Of a DNA stretch of 25,948 nucleotides, positions 7,184-25,746 are shown in pieces. This stretch comes from a virus, in IMG/VR virus record IMGVR_UViG_3300042549_004846, positions 1 through 25,948 of that record. One strand, 5' to 3'. A model generated the notes under the pieces. The model ran no database searches, was not told the DNA's origin, and saw only the letters and a program-made list of their open reading frames with translations. Position numbers and translations under genes: made by a program. Positions within the stretch are counted from its first letter, which is position 1. Each line of letters starts with the position of its first letter.

Positions 7184-7930
7184 ATGCGCCAACCCCCAGT
7201 TAAGAAACGAGTACGTGGATCAGAACGAGATGGAACTAAAATCAAAGAGAAGTTCCTAGAACAACGTGAAGAACAAATCAAAGCTAAACCTTTGATTCCA
7301 ATGAATGAAAAACAAGAATATTACATCGATTTACTTAACACAAAACCAGTTGTGGTGGCAACCGGATTCGCCGGTAGCTCTAAGACCTATATACCTACAG
7401 TGATGGCTTCTGATTTATACAAACTAGGGAAGATTAACAAGATTATTGTTACTCGACCTGCAATTAGCTCAAGTATGTCAGTTGGTTTTACTAGTGGTGA
7501 CTTCTCAACTAAGATGAAAGCATGGTTAGGCGCAGTACTTCCCATCTTTAAAGAACGACTAGGTGCTCCAATGCTGGAGTTAGCTATTGCTAACACAGAT
7601 ATTGAGTTTATTCCACTTGAGACTGTTAAAGGCTTATCATTAAATAACACATGGTTACTTGTAGAAGAATCTTCAGATTTGACCAAGGAAGAAGTAGTTA
7701 AATTAGTGACCAGAATGGGTAAGAACTCTAAATTAGTACTATCTGGTGATATTCGTCAGTCAGAACTAAGAGCAGACTCGGGATTAGTCTGGTTAACTAA
7801 GTTCTTACAGCGACATGATCATTTAAACAAGAACTTTGGTTATGTTGACTTTAATTCAACATCCGATATTGTTAGATCACATGCTGTACGTGATTTTATT
7901 ATTGCGATGGTTACTGATGAGAGTAAATAA
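7184..7930 (+). CDS. PhoH-like P-loop ATPase (248 aa)
   Basis: PhoH-like proteins are ATPases linked to RNA metabolism and are very frequent in phages. Here a basic N-terminal extension of about 35 residues precedes a P-loop ATGFAGSSKT (59-68), a TRPAISS segment (90-96), VGFTSGDFSTKM (100-111, the family's GFLPG-type motif), a Walker B-like LLVEESSDLT (158-167) and SGDIRQSEL (187-195). The last Gly of the canonical GxxxxGKT is Ser, and the Walker B Asp is Glu. The overall match is clear, but these changes may lower ATPase activity. The ribosome-binding site AAGGAGG is strong. Confidence 0.82.
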   Translation: MRQPPVKKRVRGSERDGTKIKEKFLEQREEQIKAKPLIPMNEKQEYYIDLLNTKPVVVATGFAGSSKTYIPTVMASDLYKLGKINKIIVTRPAISSSMSVGFTSGDFSTKMKAWLGAVLPIFKERLGAPMLELAIANTDIEFIPLETVKGLSLNNTWLLVEESSDLTKEEVVKLVTRMGKNSKLVLSGDIRQSELRADSGLVWLTKFLQRHDHLNKNFGYVDFNSTSDIVRSHAVRDFIIAMVTDESK

Positions 7931-7931
7931 T

Positions 7932-8651
7932 ATGGCTAGTATTAGAAAACCTAAATTAGATTTAGCTGGTAAATCTTTTGGTGAATTAACTCCAATAAAA
8001 TATATTGGTGCAAGTTCTTGGGAATGTAAATGTAATTGTGGAACCATTAAAAATGTGTCTACAGGTCATTTGCAATCAGGCCATACTAAATCTTGTGGTT
8101 GTAAGTCATATCATTCAGGTGAGAATCACCATATGTTTAGTCACGGAAAAGCAAAAACTAAAGTATTTAAAACTTGGAACCGTATTAAGGATCGATGTCT
8201 GAATCCTGAGTGTGCTGCTTATTGTAAATATGGTGGTAAAGGTATAACTATTGCGCCAGAGTACGTTAGTGATTTTTCATTATTTTATTCTGAAGTTGGT
8301 GATCCTCCTGAGGGTAAATACAGTATAGATAGAATAGATCATAAACTTGGTTATATTAAAGGTAATATGCGATGGGCAACGGACAGTCAACAATCTCAAA
8401 ATAGAGGTAAACAAAAGAATAACAGTTCAGGCGTCACTGGAGTACGGATATTCCACTCAGGTAATGCTGAACATTCTACTTACTGTATTGCTATTTGGAA
8501 AACATTAGACGGTAAAAATAGGAATAAGAGTTTTAACTGCAATAAATTAGGTTTACTTCCTGCTTTCAAGGCTGCATTTAATTATAGAAATAAAATGATT
8601 TCAGAATTAAACAATAGTGGTGCAGAGTATTCTTATAATCATGGTGAATAA
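7932..8651 (+). CDS. HNH homing endonuclease with AP2-type C-terminus (239 aa)
   Basis: I start at the ATG at 7932, one base after the PhoH stop; an earlier in-frame ATG lies inside that gene. Residues 32-57 form a zinc-ribbon (CKCNCG...SCGC). The HNH core follows with TWNRIKDRCLNP (81-92) and DRIDHKLGYIKGNMRWAT (133-150). A C-terminal part beginning SGVTGVR (166-172) resembles the AP2 DNA-binding domain common in phage HNH enzymes. Such free-standing endonucleases nick or cut a homologous site in phages lacking the gene and spread by repair. It sits between PhoH-like and ClpP-like genes and is related to the endonuclease at 11085. Confidence 0.88.
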   Translation: MASIRKPKLDLAGKSFGELTPIKYIGASSWECKCNCGTIKNVSTGHLQSGHTKSCGCKSYHSGENHHMFSHGKAKTKVFKTWNRIKDRCLNPECAAYCKYGGKGITIAPEYVSDFSLFYSEVGDPPEGKYSIDRIDHKLGYIKGNMRWATDSQQSQNRGKQKNNSSGVTGVRIFHSGNAEHSTYCIAIWKTLDGKNRNKSFNCNKLGLLPAFKAAFNYRNKMISELNNSGAEYSYNHGE

Positions 8652-9342: not shown

Positions 9343-9831
9343 ATGAAACCAGAAAGATTAAAGCAGATTCTAATCTACGATCCTCTTTCTGGGGATATTC
9401 ACACCCTTAAAAGCAAACGTAAACTAATCGCAGATCATGACGGTTTGGTTGTAGTGTTTGATCCTACAGAAAAGAAATCCTATAAGTTAAAACTAGATAG
9501 AATAGCCTGCATGTTAGCTTTTGGTACTGCTGTAAGTGACAACAAACGTGTGTTACACCGTGATTTGAACGTAGAAGACAATTCTCTGAAGAATCTAATG
9601 GTGGTTTCTCGTTCGGTGTTTCTGGCAGTAAAGGAAGCACACCGTAACTTGACTCAAGAGATTAAAATGTTGCAACATCCTACGGATCAGTTCAAATATG
9701 TGGTACACTGGCTAGAGAAAGGTCAGGAGAAGCAGAAAGTAGTACACGATATTACCGAAGCTAGGAAGTTGATGCTTAGGTTACAACTTAAGTACAGTAA
9801 AGTCTTGACTAAGTATTGTGTTTTCGATTGA
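9343..9831 (+). CDS. Degenerate HNH-type DNA-binding protein (162 aa)
   Basis: The N-terminal half resembles HNH_3 homing endonucleases: ILIYDPLSGDI, then LDRIACMLAFG where functional relatives have a His-Arg pair, then VLHRDLNVEDNSLKNLMVVS, corresponding to VxHIDGNxxNNxxxNLxxV. Asp52 replaces the first His and part of the second motif is altered, so nuclease activity is doubtful. The C-terminal half (KYVVHWLEKGQEKQKVVHDI, then repeated basic residues) could bind DNA as the AP2-like part does in relatives. It may be a domesticated endonuclease turned DNA-binding protein. It lies 10 bp after the ClpP-like gene and is the last gene before the structured non-coding region. Confidence 0.6.
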   Translation: MKPERLKQILIYDPLSGDIHTLKSKRKLIADHDGLVVVFDPTEKKSYKLKLDRIACMLAFGTAVSDNKRVLHRDLNVEDNSLKNLMVVSRSVFLAVKEAHRNLTQEIKMLQHPTDQFKYVVHWLEKGQEKQKVVHDITEARKLMLRLQLKYSKVLTKYCVFD

Positions 9832-9834
9832 TTG

Positions 9835-9874
9835 TAATATTTAACTAGCATTTCTGAAAATATTGTGATATAAT
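9835..9874 (+). promoter_or_regulatory. Promoter block A, extended -10
   Basis: TATAAT at 9869-9874 is preceded by TGA, giving an extended -10. The 34 bp upstream include TAATATTTAACTAG and ATTTCTG, repeated almost exactly, at the same distance from the -10, at 21324-21363. No consensus -35 is present, so the conserved upstream block may be the site of a phage activator or altered polymerase. It would drive the zinc-ribbon mini-protein, the structured RNA and perhaps the terminase genes. The 220 bp after it contain hairpins AGTC/GACT (9933-9947) and TCCGGT/ACCGGA (10018-10034). Confidence 0.65.
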
Positions 9875-10096
9875 ACTTCTAGATATACTTAAATTACTAA
9901 GTTTGTTTTCTACGTAAAATAATTTAGCTTTAGTCTAGTTATGACTGCAAGATACCAACCAACAGTAACGCTGAGTAAATCTAAGCTGTTTCGTTTGTCT
10001 AATACACTCACTGGAACTCCGGTAAGCAACCGGAACTTATATTCAATAACAATAACAAAGCCTGAATAACAGGTTATAATAGGGAGCCTAACTAAT

Positions 10097-10276
10097 ATGG
10101 CAACATGCGTACATTGCGGGGAATATTTCAGAGTAAGTCCTTGGAATTCAGAAGGAAAAGCCTGTGAGAACTGCGTAGATACATTGGATGAACCTGTGTA
10201 TGATGCAGAGGATCAGGTGGAAGTTGATATGCTGATGAATCCTACGGGTGTAACGCAAGCTGTGTTTTATGATTAG
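10097..10276 (+). CDS. Zinc-ribbon mini-protein (59 aa)
   Basis: A 59-residue product starts at an ATG with GGGAG 10 bp upstream. Residues 4-7 are CVHC and residues 24-27 are CENC, a two-knuckle zinc ribbon, followed by an acidic segment (LDEPVYDAEDQVEVD) and a hydrophobic end (NPTGVTQAVFYD). From memory, phages carry small proteins of this pattern (CxxCGEYF...NSEG..CENC...DEPVYD), so it is probably real and conserved. It lies in the transcription unit that continues into the structured RNA. It may bind RNA or DNA or a host protein; no function is known to me. Confidence 0.65.
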   Translation: MATCVHCGEYFRVSPWNSEGKACENCVDTLDEPVYDAEDQVEVDMLMNPTGVTQAVFYD

Positions 10277-11073
10277 ACTTAAGTAAAGATTTCTCAAAGG
10301 GATGGGAACCAGTAACGGAAGTTATCCATCAGGTGAAAAGCCTGTCCAAGCATAAGCGGAAGCTCCGTGGGTTAATCTAATCCTACTGAGGTATAATAGA
10401 ACCAAGAAACAGAATCTATTAAGAATTAAGCTCCGCATCTTACTGCGAGGAATAGACGGCGGTTTCTACGGTGTTAAATCATCGGTGAATCTTGGGACCC
10501 TAACGTAAGACTAATTTAATAGTGTATCTTATAGTATACGTTTACTATCAAATGTCTACTATAATGTACACTATTGTACAAACAGTTAAGTCGAGCGAGA
10601 TTCGTGTGGTCAGTCGGTGCGTAATAGCACAGAACATGTAGCTGGTAAATGGTGTAGGCAGAAGGACTAAAGACCTTTAGATAAAAACAGTAGCCTAATT
10701 AAAGTCTCCGTGAGCGCCTACTTATTCATTAAAAGAACCTACCTTGGGTCCGGGTATAGTCCCCGGTTAAGAACGAAAGTTCTAGGCGTCACTCGTGGCT
10801 AATGCGAGGATAAAGCGGTGTGTCAATCCGCACGATGAGTTTGCCAAAGCTCGGGCTAATTGATGGCGTGAATGACTGAACAGTTGGTACGAAAATTCAA
10901 CCGCAGGATTATGTAACCTGCACTAATTCAAGCTCCCTTGTGGAGCTATCTGCGTTTCTGCGCAGTATCCATGCAACGGATAAAAGCAAAGCAATAGGTA
11001 GTTCGTTAAAGTTAAGTTACTCTTATTAGGGTTCTGCTTTGCACCCTGTTGCAAATATCAGTAACTTAACTTT
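10277..11073 (+). ncRNA. Candidate large structured phage RNA (about 0.8 kb)
   Basis: No reading frame of 60 codons exists here, and the sequence is visibly richer in GC and hairpins than the genes around it. Stems include GATGG/CCATC (10301-10330), CAGG/CCTG (10330-10344), TAATAGA/TCTATTA (10394-10421), AATAGTGTA/TACACTATT (10518-10575) enclosing ATAGTA/TACTAT, GTGC/GCAC (10617-10630), GTAGGC/GCCTAC (10654-10721), CCGGG/CCCGG (10750-10766), AGAAC-GAAA-GTTCT (10770-10783, GNRA loop), GCAGG/CCTGC (10903-10921), AGCTCC/GGAGCT (10931-10947), CTGCGT/GCGCAG (10950-10965), TATCC/GGATA (10966-10982) and a 13-bp stem 11008-11020/11061-11073. Possible long-range pairs are GGACCC (10495-10500) with GGGTCC (10746-10751), and an 8-bp loop pseudoknot near the 3' end. 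Size and phage setting recall GOLLD and ROOL RNAs, but I cannot confirm membership. The 5' boundary is uncertain; the transcript may start near 9880. Confidence 0.65.
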
Positions 11074-11084
11074 AGGGGATTATT

Positions 11085-11747
11085 TTGAAATATCAAATTG
11101 GACATAAATTTGGAAAACTCACAGTTGTTGAGGAAGAGAGTAATTTTATAACAGAAGGTGGATATCCATACTTGAGATATAAATGTCAATGTGAATGCGG
11201 AAACTTTGTTTTTGCTAGAAAAAGCCAACTTAAAAGTAGTAGAGTTGTATCTTGTGGTTGTATTATTCGTACAAAGGATGGAATAATTCATGAAAGACAT
11301 AAACATTATGGGACTCAAATATATCAATCTTGGTTTGCTATGAAATCTCGTTGCATGGATACTAAAAATGCTATGTACAAAAATTATGGTGAAAGAGGTA
11401 TTTCTGTTTGTGATAAATGGTTATCTTTTGCTGGATTTTTTGATGACATGGGTTCAAGTTATATTAAAGATTATTCAATTGACAGGATAGATAATAATAT
11501 TGGATACTGTAAAGAAAATTGTAGATGGGCTGATGATTCAACACAAGCCTATAACCAAAGAATGTCTTCTAAGAATAAGTCTGGTAAAACTGGAGTTTCA
11601 TGGCATAAAACTACTAAACGGTGGAGAGTAAAGTTTATAGAGCCAGAAACTAAAGTAGAAATAGTAGAGTTTTATGATTATCTATGGGATGCTATCTATT
11701 CCAGAATGGAACTTGAACAAAAATATCACGGATATGTAAAGGAATAA
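11085..11747 (+). CDS. HNH homing endonuclease with AP2-type C-terminus (220 aa)
   Basis: The start is a TTG at 11085, seven bases after AGGGG; no better ATG exists upstream. The architecture matches the gene at 7932: a zinc-ribbon (CQCECG at 34-39, SCGC at 56-59), the HNH core (SWFAMKSRCMDTKN; YSIDRIDNNIGYCKENCRWA at 130-149), then SGKTGVSWHKTTKRWRVKF, an AP2-like DNA-binding end. All expected active-site residues are present. It lies directly behind the 13-bp stem that closes the structured RNA, and its stop region supplies the AAGGAATAAA ribosome-binding site for the small terminase gene. This suggests insertion between the RNA and terminase with little disturbance. Coding sequence is more AT-rich than neighbouring virion genes. 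Confidence 0.88.
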   Translation: MKYQIGHKFGKLTVVEEESNFITEGGYPYLRYKCQCECGNFVFARKSQLKSSRVVSCGCIIRTKDGIIHERHKHYGTQIYQSWFAMKSRCMDTKNAMYKNYGERGISVCDKWLSFAGFFDDMGSSYIKDYSIDRIDNNIGYCKENCRWADDSTQAYNQRMSSKNKSGKTGVSWHKTTKRWRVKFIEPETKVEIVEFYDYLWDAIYSRMELEQKYHGYVKE

Positions 11748-11748
11748 A

Positions 11749-12105
11749 ATGGTCTTCAAAAAAACAATAGATAACGGTGGCGTACCGGATAGCAGAATTA
11801 ATCGACTAGGAACAATCAAACCTAACCGTGAAAAAACACGTAGAGAAATTAAAGAACAAGAACTATTAAGTCTACTACGTAAGATTAAACCACATATTGC
11901 TGACAGTGTAATGACAGCTAGTAGGATTATGAAACGTGATGATGCAAATGATAGTAATAAACTAAAATCTGCAGCTTTGCTTATTTCTTTATACAAAGAC
12001 TTATTAAAAGATGCGTATGAAGGTGGTGATGAAGATGCGGAGGGAACTGAGGTTCAAAGTAATCAGCCAATGTTCTCTCTAACGATGTTAAAACCTTCAG
12101 AATAG
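11749..12105 (+). CDS. terS: Terminase small subunit (118 aa)
   Basis: The gene lies immediately before the large terminase, with an 7-bp gap. The protein is helical and highly charged, with a basic N-terminal half (NRLGTIKPNREKTRREIKEQE) suited to DNA binding, a helical middle (RKIKPHIADSVMTASRIMKRDD...AALLISLYKDLLKDAY) suited to ring assembly, and an acidic tail. Small terminases recognise the packaging site and deliver DNA to the large subunit. The sequence family is too variable for a motif-based call, so the assignment rests mainly on position, size and charge pattern. Confidence 0.75.
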   Translation: MVFKKTIDNGGVPDSRINRLGTIKPNREKTRREIKEQELLSLLRKIKPHIADSVMTASRIMKRDDANDSNKLKSAALLISLYKDLLKDAYEGGDEDAEGTEVQSNQPMFSLTMLKPSE

Positions 12106-24635: not shown

Positions 24636-24706
24636 TAAGCTAGGCTGATCCCCGAAAAGACGAATATCCACCGTCCTGCTTATTTCTTAAGTGGAAATTT
24701 CGGGAG
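24636..24706 (+). promoter_or_regulatory. Pseudoknot-capable leader covering the ribosome-binding site
   Basis: Helix 1: TAAGC-AGG (24636-24644, one bulged T) pairs with CCTGCTTA (24675-24682). Helix 2: CCCGAAA (24651-24657) pairs with TTTCGGG (24698-24704). Helix 3: CCAC (24668-24671) pairs with GTGG (24691-24694). Helices 1 and 2 cross, giving a pseudoknot. Helix 2 includes the GGG of the GGGAG ribosome-binding site for the ATG at 24715, so folding should restrict translation. Confidence 0.5.
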
Positions 24707-24714
24707 AAATATTA

Positions 24715-25746
24715 ATGAATAAGAACGACAAATGTGTCTATCTACATTTAGATGTAGCAGGCATAATTAGGTATGTTGGTAGTGGTACGAAGAACCGTCC
24801 ATACTCGTGTTCAAGTAGAAATGATAAATGGAAATCAATATTCTCTCAACATAAACCCTCAGTAGTTATAGTTGAGAGTAATCTTTCTAAAGAAGATGCA
24901 ATATCCTTGGAATATTATATGTATCATTCATGTTTAAATAGTATTGTTAATACTACGGAGCCACGTCCACCAAAATCAATAGATTTTAAATCCTTGAATG
25001 AATATTTTTATGTTGATGAGACAAGTCCATCAGGATTAAGGGTAAAGAAAAAATTACCAAGAAATACCTCAACTAACGTGGGCGACCCAGCAGGTGCTGA
25101 AATTTCAGCAATGGGTAAGAAATATTGGAGAGTTAAACATAATGGTGTTTCTTACTATGTACATAGGATAGTTTATCTATTAACTAATGGTGTTATAAAC
25201 AGTAATTTGGTTATCAATCACATTGATGGTAATGGTTTGAACAATAGTATTACTAATTTAGAAGAAACAACACATCAAGTTAATTCCTTTAAAAGACCTA
25301 AAATTAAATCTACAGAATTACCATCCGGCATATCTTACACTAAATATAAAAATAAAGTAGATGGTTTTATTTCGAAATACACACCAGTAGGTGAAACCAA
25401 ACAAATGGTACAGCGATTTAGTATTGTAGCCTTTGGTTCAGAAAATAAAGCATTCGAAGCTGCAAAAGATTGGTTAGATTATTATTCACAATTAAATGGT
25501 TGGGTAATTGGAGATACAGATATAGAGTTGTTACGTATAAAAGTAATTGAACATATGAGAACTATCCAGATGATACGTTCCAACTCAAAAGCGTATCTGA
25601 CACCTAATGGTAAATGGACTTCTAGACTATCTATTAAAAAAGGTAAAAATATTTCATGTGGTGTTTTTGATACCCATGACGAAGCCTTATTTGCTAAAAT
25701 GAAATTAATTGAAGAATATAACAACTCAATTAGTATAGAACTCTAA
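24715..25746 (+). CDS. GIY-YIG / HNH fusion homing endonuclease (343 aa)
   Basis: I start at the ATG at 24715, eight bases after GGGAG; an in-frame GTG at 24691 lies in the leader. The N-terminal domain (about 1-75) has VYLHL at 8-12, RYVGSGTKNR at 19-28 and a Glu66 in SLEYYMY, the layout of GIY-YIG nucleases. Residues about 97-190 form an HNH_3-type domain: FYVDETSPSGLR, YWRVKHNGVSYYVHRIVYLL, INHIDGNGLNNSITNLEETT. The remaining 150 residues include SGISYTKYKNKVDGFISKYT and a final WTSRLSIKKGKNISCGVFDT, AP2-like DNA-binding repeats. Two nuclease domains in one homing enzyme is unusual. It sits between the capsid gene and a head-completion gene. Confidence 0.78.
   Translation: MNKNDKCVYLHLDVAGIIRYVGSGTKNRPYSCSSRNDKWKSIFSQHKPSVVIVESNLSKEDAISLEYYMYHSCLNSIVNTTEPRPPKSIDFKSLNEYFYVDETSPSGLRVKKKLPRNTSTNVGDPAGAEISAMGKKYWRVKHNGVSYYVHRIVYLLTNGVINSNLVINHIDGNGLNNSITNLEETTHQVNSFKRPKIKSTELPSGISYTKYKNKVDGFISKYTPVGETKQMVQRFSIVAFGSENKAFEAAKDWLDYYSQLNGWVIGDTDIELLRIKVIEHMRTIQMIRSNSKAYLTPNGKWTSRLSIKKGKNISCGVFDTHDEALFAKMKLIEEYNNSISIEL

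Follow-up and report, generated by a model that had tools for sequence, protein, structure and literature searches.

Non-tRNA products of phage tRNA clusters include RNAs C and D of T4, which are stable species derived from its tRNA cluster, and RNAs tied to packaging genes include the pRNA of phi29, whose size range is like that of the RNA described here; ROOL is much larger than ~190 nt, and assembly into a 14-mer RNA cage is a feature of GOLLD. GOLLD and ROOL are phage-associated structured RNAs that occur near tRNA islands; the linkers of GOLLD sometimes contain tRNAs, and the function of ROOL is unknown (PMC12286853). We analyzed a 25.9-kb IMG/VR viral contig (the window), whose terminase has a distant kinship with Felix O1/PAK_P1-type phages and for which a preliminary description had proposed a single giant RNA of ~800 nt recalling GOLLD and ROOL. 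Comparison with related phages points instead to a core of ~190 nt that precedes terS, the small terminase gene. Its setting is indeed like that of GOLLD and ROOL, namely an ornate phage-associated RNA near a tRNA island: tRNA genes are found within ≤3 kb upstream of the core in 35 of the 43 contigs that have >1.5 kb of upstream sequence, and in relatives tRNAs sit in conserved spacers beside the core, although the window itself contains zero tRNA genes according to ARAGORN. The likeness does not extend to the Rfam models, since the GOLLD and ROOL covariance models gave no match in the window at the gathering threshold or at E ≤ 5, and none in the relatives at E ≤ 1. Membership in either family was therefore rejected on the absence of a covariance-model match at E ≤ 5 and on size: GOLLD exceeds 800 nt, whereas the conserved unit here has ~190 nt and a fixed place before terS, and the core likewise differs from ROOL in adjoining terS. 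The phi29 pRNA shares with the core the association with packaging genes; however, its fold is different, its Rfam model gave no match, and the phages studied here carry a pair of terminase genes, terS and terL.

Rfam 15 produced nothing beyond chance in the region 9830-12000. Thus, of the two options left by the preliminary description, a new class or a divergent member, the former is indicated as far as the models tell, and we describe the core as a conserved structured RNA of ~190 nt, as recognized by comparative sequence analysis, that is in no catalogued family. A search of the open-access literature found no description of the core RNA or of non-coding elements of the cultured phages named below, which is a weaker statement than "undescribed".

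Relatives of the window were first collected via the large terminase, and the region, aligned by blastn, matches them in blocks with insertions and deletions between the blocks. An IMG/VR search that started from aligned sequences of the small terminase-like protein (A2) yielded 80 loci, in most of which a profile of positions 10736-10928 has matches directly upstream of the small terminase-like gene. The covariance model R1 detected the core in about 70 IMG/VR contigs, as well as in unannotated gaps of two phages in culture, P26059A of Curvibacter and DC31 of Limnohabitans; a pattern search added three further copies (L135, L140, and L147). The copies are 120-195 nt long, and searches of whole records normally find one full-length, high-scoring copy per genome, located just upstream of terS. 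Neither R1 nor R2 found a core copy in twelve more distant isolates, and neither gave a convincing homologue in Felix O1-like, PAK_P1-like, rV5-like, Rheinheimera, Acinetobacter, and ICP1 isolates, one Rheinheimera phage having a 10-bit partial match with R1 only. The exact conserved core pattern, a narrow test, is absent from 84,980 bacterial and archaeal genomes. In the window, the core comprises eight hairpins and one pseudoknot, arranged as follows:

10736-10927, + strand: core structured RNA (working name "terS-leader RNA"), ~190 nt; 156 bits and E 4e-49 with R1; covariation
10737-10749, + strand: P0, 5' hairpin with a conserved CCUU-type loop; 82% paired, double-sided changes
10750-10766, + strand: P1, hairpin CCG.../...CGG; 91-94% paired, double-sided changes
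10770-10783, + strand: P2, GAAA-capped 5-bp hairpin; 100% paired where present, 5/5 pairs covary
10784-10790, + strand: single-stranded GGCGUC block; near-invariant unpaired columns
10791-10809, + strand: P3, hairpin whose loop enters the pseudoknot; 99.3% paired, 5/5 pairs covary
10798-10867, + strand: pseudoknot of the P3 loop, GCUA 10798-10801 with UGGC 10864-10867, beside a conserved CGU
10814-10832, + strand: P4, hairpin; 93.6% paired, 6/6 pairs covary
10834-10855, + strand: P5, hairpin with conserved GCCAA in the near-invariant loop; 93.1% paired, 7/7 pairs covary
10883-10901, + strand: P6, hairpin with conserved ACGAAA in the loop; 98.6% paired, 4/4 pairs covary
10903-10921, + strand: P7, hairpin with conserved GUAA in the loop, followed by CUAAU; 96.8% paired, 4/5 pairs covary

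Covarying pairs, on which the preliminary description had staked its structured RNA, are present in the homologues of the core. In the alignment of 56 distinct copies, which was fitted to the model and hence favours the structure (the helices themselves had first been derived from an alignment without such fitting), standard pairs fill 94.6% of the predicted-pair cells versus 68.0% after shuffling, double-sided changes occupy 491 cells versus 134 expected, and both sides change in 37 of the 40 core pairs; sliding the partners by one base lowers the pairing to 34-38%. The covariation outcome was the same for a first set of 65 distinct rows. Judged from these sequences, paired mutations keep the shape of the core in dozens of phages, so the core has some function. 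The P2 hairpin, which had been placed exactly in the preliminary description as a GNRA-capped stem, is optional, being absent from about half of the relatives, and the P0 loop is conserved in nearly all of them. Near-invariant unpaired motifs of the core are CCU(U), GGcGUCc, UAAcA, GCCAA, CGU, ACGAAA, and GUAA. For the pseudoknot, the own-partner score of 10.1 compares with a mean of 7.1 for permuted partners and was reached in 0 of 2000 permutations; about 20 pair types are found, including CUGU/ACAG, CUGA/UCAG, CUUG/CAAG, CUAA/UUAG, UUGUC/GACAA, and GUAAGA/UCUUAC, and the interaction is poorly formed in L015 and L067. The P5 loop (GCCAA) had also been considered as a partner of the UUGG of 10884-10889; this was rejected, as the UUGG side belongs to the P6 stem. 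Comparison of window positions 10790-10870 with L003, L005, L009, and L020 shows that the middle domain has been swapped between near-identical phages whose core ends are alike on both sides: between the window and L003, P3-P4-P5 is 54% alike and P6-P7 98%. This exchange is independent of terS, and the middle domain gives the impression of a specificity cassette.

The + strand of 10277-11084 carries no gene, which confirms what the preliminary description had noted for 10277-11073; the stretch also has no ARAGORN or Rfam match to a tRNA or tmRNA. Upstream of the core, the following elements were distinguished:

9866-10041, + strand: promoter and leader RNA; extended -10 TGATATAAT at 9866-9874; 96.6% identical in L009
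10097-10276, + strand: small ORF of 59 aa with two CxxC pairs, within the tRNA/RNA cluster; 43-97% identical in relatives
10289-10422, + strand: conserved spacer module A around a tRNA-Pro site; blastn segments flanking the tRNA in L009 and L010
10424-10517, + strand: module B, folded spacer; loop pairing UCUUAC (10438-10443) with GUAAGA (10505-10510)
10518-10583, + strand: near-perfect 58-nt inverted repeat; 89-95% identical in L003, L005, and L009
10584-10735, + strand: window-only segment of 152 nt; no blastn match in the relatives' loci, absent from L003, L005, and L009

In the relatives, tRNA genes are inserted here: Asp, Asn, Pro, Glu, and Thr in L013 (the same contig as L009), Glu and Thr in L003, and seven in L010. 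For example, the tRNA-Pro of L009 and L010 splits a spacer that is continuous in the window (between gcctgtcca and agcataagcgg, ~10348/10349), and the inverted repeat follows tRNA-Thr in L003 and L009. Since the relatives' tRNAs interrupt spacers that run on in the tRNA-free window, the upstream half (10277-10735) is, by this comparison, a remodelled tRNA cluster that has lost its tRNAs and kept its spacers. Modules A and B are, on the alignments available, separate folded modules with their own covariation. In module A (11 sequences), the stem 10367-10371/10382-10386 is 98% paired with covariation, one helix being clear and one poorly registered. Module B has compensating changes, read by eye in three homologues, as TCTTAC/GTAAGA, GTCAG/CTGAC (L003), and TGATGC/GCATCA (L006), and is missing from L009. 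The window-only segment contains a possible GTAGGC/GCCTAC pairing. A further conserved module (GGTATGTCGG...CACAAGAAACATT), absent from the window, occurs in the relatives' tRNA clusters at L108 3447, L009 3082, L010 7149, L048 2184, L069 2205, L077 3841, and L080 1386.

At the start of the cluster, the extended -10 promoter that had been reported from the window alone is conserved in the relatives. It is followed by a leader RNA that ends in the window in a P7-like hairpin (10018-10034); in other relatives, the core model gives the corresponding leader 16-18 bits. This second, weakly similar RNA, located right after a strong extended -10 and ending in a P7-like hairpin and ACUAAU, was observed at 9866-10041 in the window, L006 4601-4770, L101 3608-3771, L107 3553-3698, L030 4024-4227, and L102 1-170. 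Judging by the weak core-model score of the leader and the common P7-like hairpin and ACUAAU, the RNAs on the two sides of the tRNA cluster are probably related to each other.

Downstream of the core, the window contains three elements:

10930-11084, + strand: hairpins that follow the core, and the HNH-gene leader, including a 14-bp stem, 11008-11021/11060-11073
11085-11747, + strand: HNH homing endonuclease gene between the core RNA and terS; phrog_374, E 2e-58
11749-12105, + strand: gene for a small protein, taken as the marker of terS (small terminase) and lying immediately upstream of terL; 50-81% identity in relatives

The terS marker gene has no PHROG match, and its name rests on position. 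The three back-to-back hairpins seen earlier lie at 10930-10981. The segment 10930-11084 is kept together with the HNH gene in L003, L005, and L021, and L009 has neither the gene nor the part with the 14-bp stem. In about 36 of ~56 copies, the 3' end of the core lies 11-17 nt before the predicted terS start codon, with a Shine-Dalgarno sequence directly after P7 in the interval; this conserved placement just upstream of the terS ribosome-binding site is interrupted by the HNH gene in the window group. At the other end, the core begins 0-6 nt past the 3' end of a tRNA in several relatives, DC31 being among the directly adjoining cases. In at least one relative by terS, L031, the tRNAs run straight into terS and the core RNA is absent. 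P6-P7-like hairpins were also noticed elsewhere in the genome of P26059A (KY981271, 45173-45214, minus strand), directly before an apparent tRNA gene.

The fixed short spacing to the terS start, together with the upstream tRNAs and a core that in several contigs starts at a tRNA 3' end, leads us to prefer, tentatively and with a probability of about 0.45, the interpretation that tRNA excision leaves the core as a folded leader at the 5' end of the terS-terL message. The promoter at ~9870 would drive one transcript that runs from the leader RNA across the tRNA/RNA cluster into the packaging genes, and host enzymes would cut the tRNAs out, so that the core would be left as the folded 5' end of the terS-terL message. 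There it may protect the message and tune the level and timing of terminase translation, most likely by binding a protein or a ribosome component via the conserved loops CCUU, GCCAA, ACGAAA, and GUAA; in the window, the HNH gene would later have been inserted between the core and terS, and the tRNAs lost. A leader role is favoured by the presence of the full-length copy once per genome, at terS, and by the related, weaker-scoring RNA between promoter and cluster start in several relatives. It is opposed by the window, L003, and L005, where the HNH gene separates the core from terS and yet the core is intact, by the exchange of P3-P4-P5 independently of terS, and by the occurrence of terS without the core RNA in L031. 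A more specific scheme, in which the P0 loop (CCUU, like the 16S anti-Shine-Dalgarno) masks the terS ribosome site, was not supported: the pairing probability is near zero in most of 20 sequences and at most 0.44, and the loop is constant while the Shine-Dalgarno sequence varies.

The main rival to a leader function is that the core works in trans as a stable small RNA. Cuts at its 5' and 3' ends would free it from the tRNA precursor and the terS mRNA, respectively, and it would serve as a separate molecule for the ribosome, a host factor, or self-assembly, as proposed for GOLLD and ROOL. We regard it as possible, if less so: the elaborate fold with its pseudoknot and conserved loops, the persistence of the core despite the HNH insertion, and the specificity-like swapping of the middle domain all fit such a molecule, and so does the tRNA-island setting as in GOLLD and ROOL (PMC12286853). 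However, the strict position at terS and the fixed short spacing to the start codon speak against a trans-acting RNA, and its 3' terminator or processing site is putative. Rather doubtful is the fuller proposal of a new RNA class, existing as its own molecule beside the tRNA island, in which the exchangeable P3-P4-P5 domain and the pseudoknot would set specificity, for example for self-assembly, a host target, or the terminase. A role in DNA packaging, either as a phi29-pRNA-like motor RNA or as a structured transcript made from the start site of packaging next to terS, appears improbable despite the constant location beside terS/terL, the length of 120-195 nt, and a P3-loop pairing that could in principle form between molecules, given that the core matches neither the phi29 pRNA model nor any Rfam family, that a small terminase candidate is present so that an RNA ring is not needed, and that L031 lacks the core.

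Very improbable is the single ~800-nt ornate RNA (10277-11073) of the GOLLD/ROOL kind that was originally put forward. The tRNA island and the several folded modules agree with it, and the folding energy of the whole 808 nt beats that of 20 dinucleotide-shuffled versions (z -4.63); taken singly, the pieces give modest values (z -1.34 for 10736-10985 and -1.46 for 10277-10420), so folding energy is insufficient as proof and the comparison with relatives had to decide. That comparison upholds a structured RNA, by covariation in 10736-10927, but contradicts one giant unit, since its pieces are absent from or inserted in individual relatives: the ~600 nt outside the core are tRNA-cluster spacers, optional modules, and the HNH-gene leader, gained and lost independently. 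The suggested long-range pair (GGGACC 10494-10499/GGGTCC 10746-10751) has one side in an optional piece that L009 lacks and the other in P0/P1, and the 3' stem, although real and of 14 bp, belongs to the HNH insertion. Hardly credible is a ribozyme, such as a group I intron, together with its HNH endonuclease. The HNH gene lies directly downstream, the relatives have group I introns in terL, and the sequences GGACTA/TAGTCC near 10662/10757 look like the P7 of such an intron; however, Rfam RF00028 has no match in 9830-12000 at E ≤ 5 in a search that finds the relatives' terL introns, the 5' strand of the would-be P7 (GGACTA) lies in the window-only 10584-10735, and the intron is contradicted by the covariation model, in which the core has a different architecture.

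The core represents a structured RNA family with strong covariation at the start of the packaging genes; Rfam lacks it, and the records of the two phages in culture leave it unannotated. The cultured members of this phage group have freshwater bacteria as hosts. The core could reveal that packaging genes are controlled in part through RNA, or extend the list of ornate RNAs, such as GOLLD and ROOL, whose attraction to phage tRNA islands is puzzling. As the hosts of DC31 and P26059A are cultured, its expression and function are directly testable.

The window bears a heavy load of homing endonucleases, with four HNH-type matches in 26 kb (7836-8651, 9343-9831, which is weak, 11085-11747, and 24691-25746). 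Its terL is without a group I intron; in or beside the terL of relatives, such introns score 63-101 bits (L009 6342-6544; L008 236-431 and 734-950; L030 6105-6323). Matches to the int-alpA RNA (RF02996) near or above threshold occur at L009 4928-4992, L007 1734-1798, and L101 5360-5423; where the neighbours were inspected, these matches seem to lie shortly before homing endonuclease genes.
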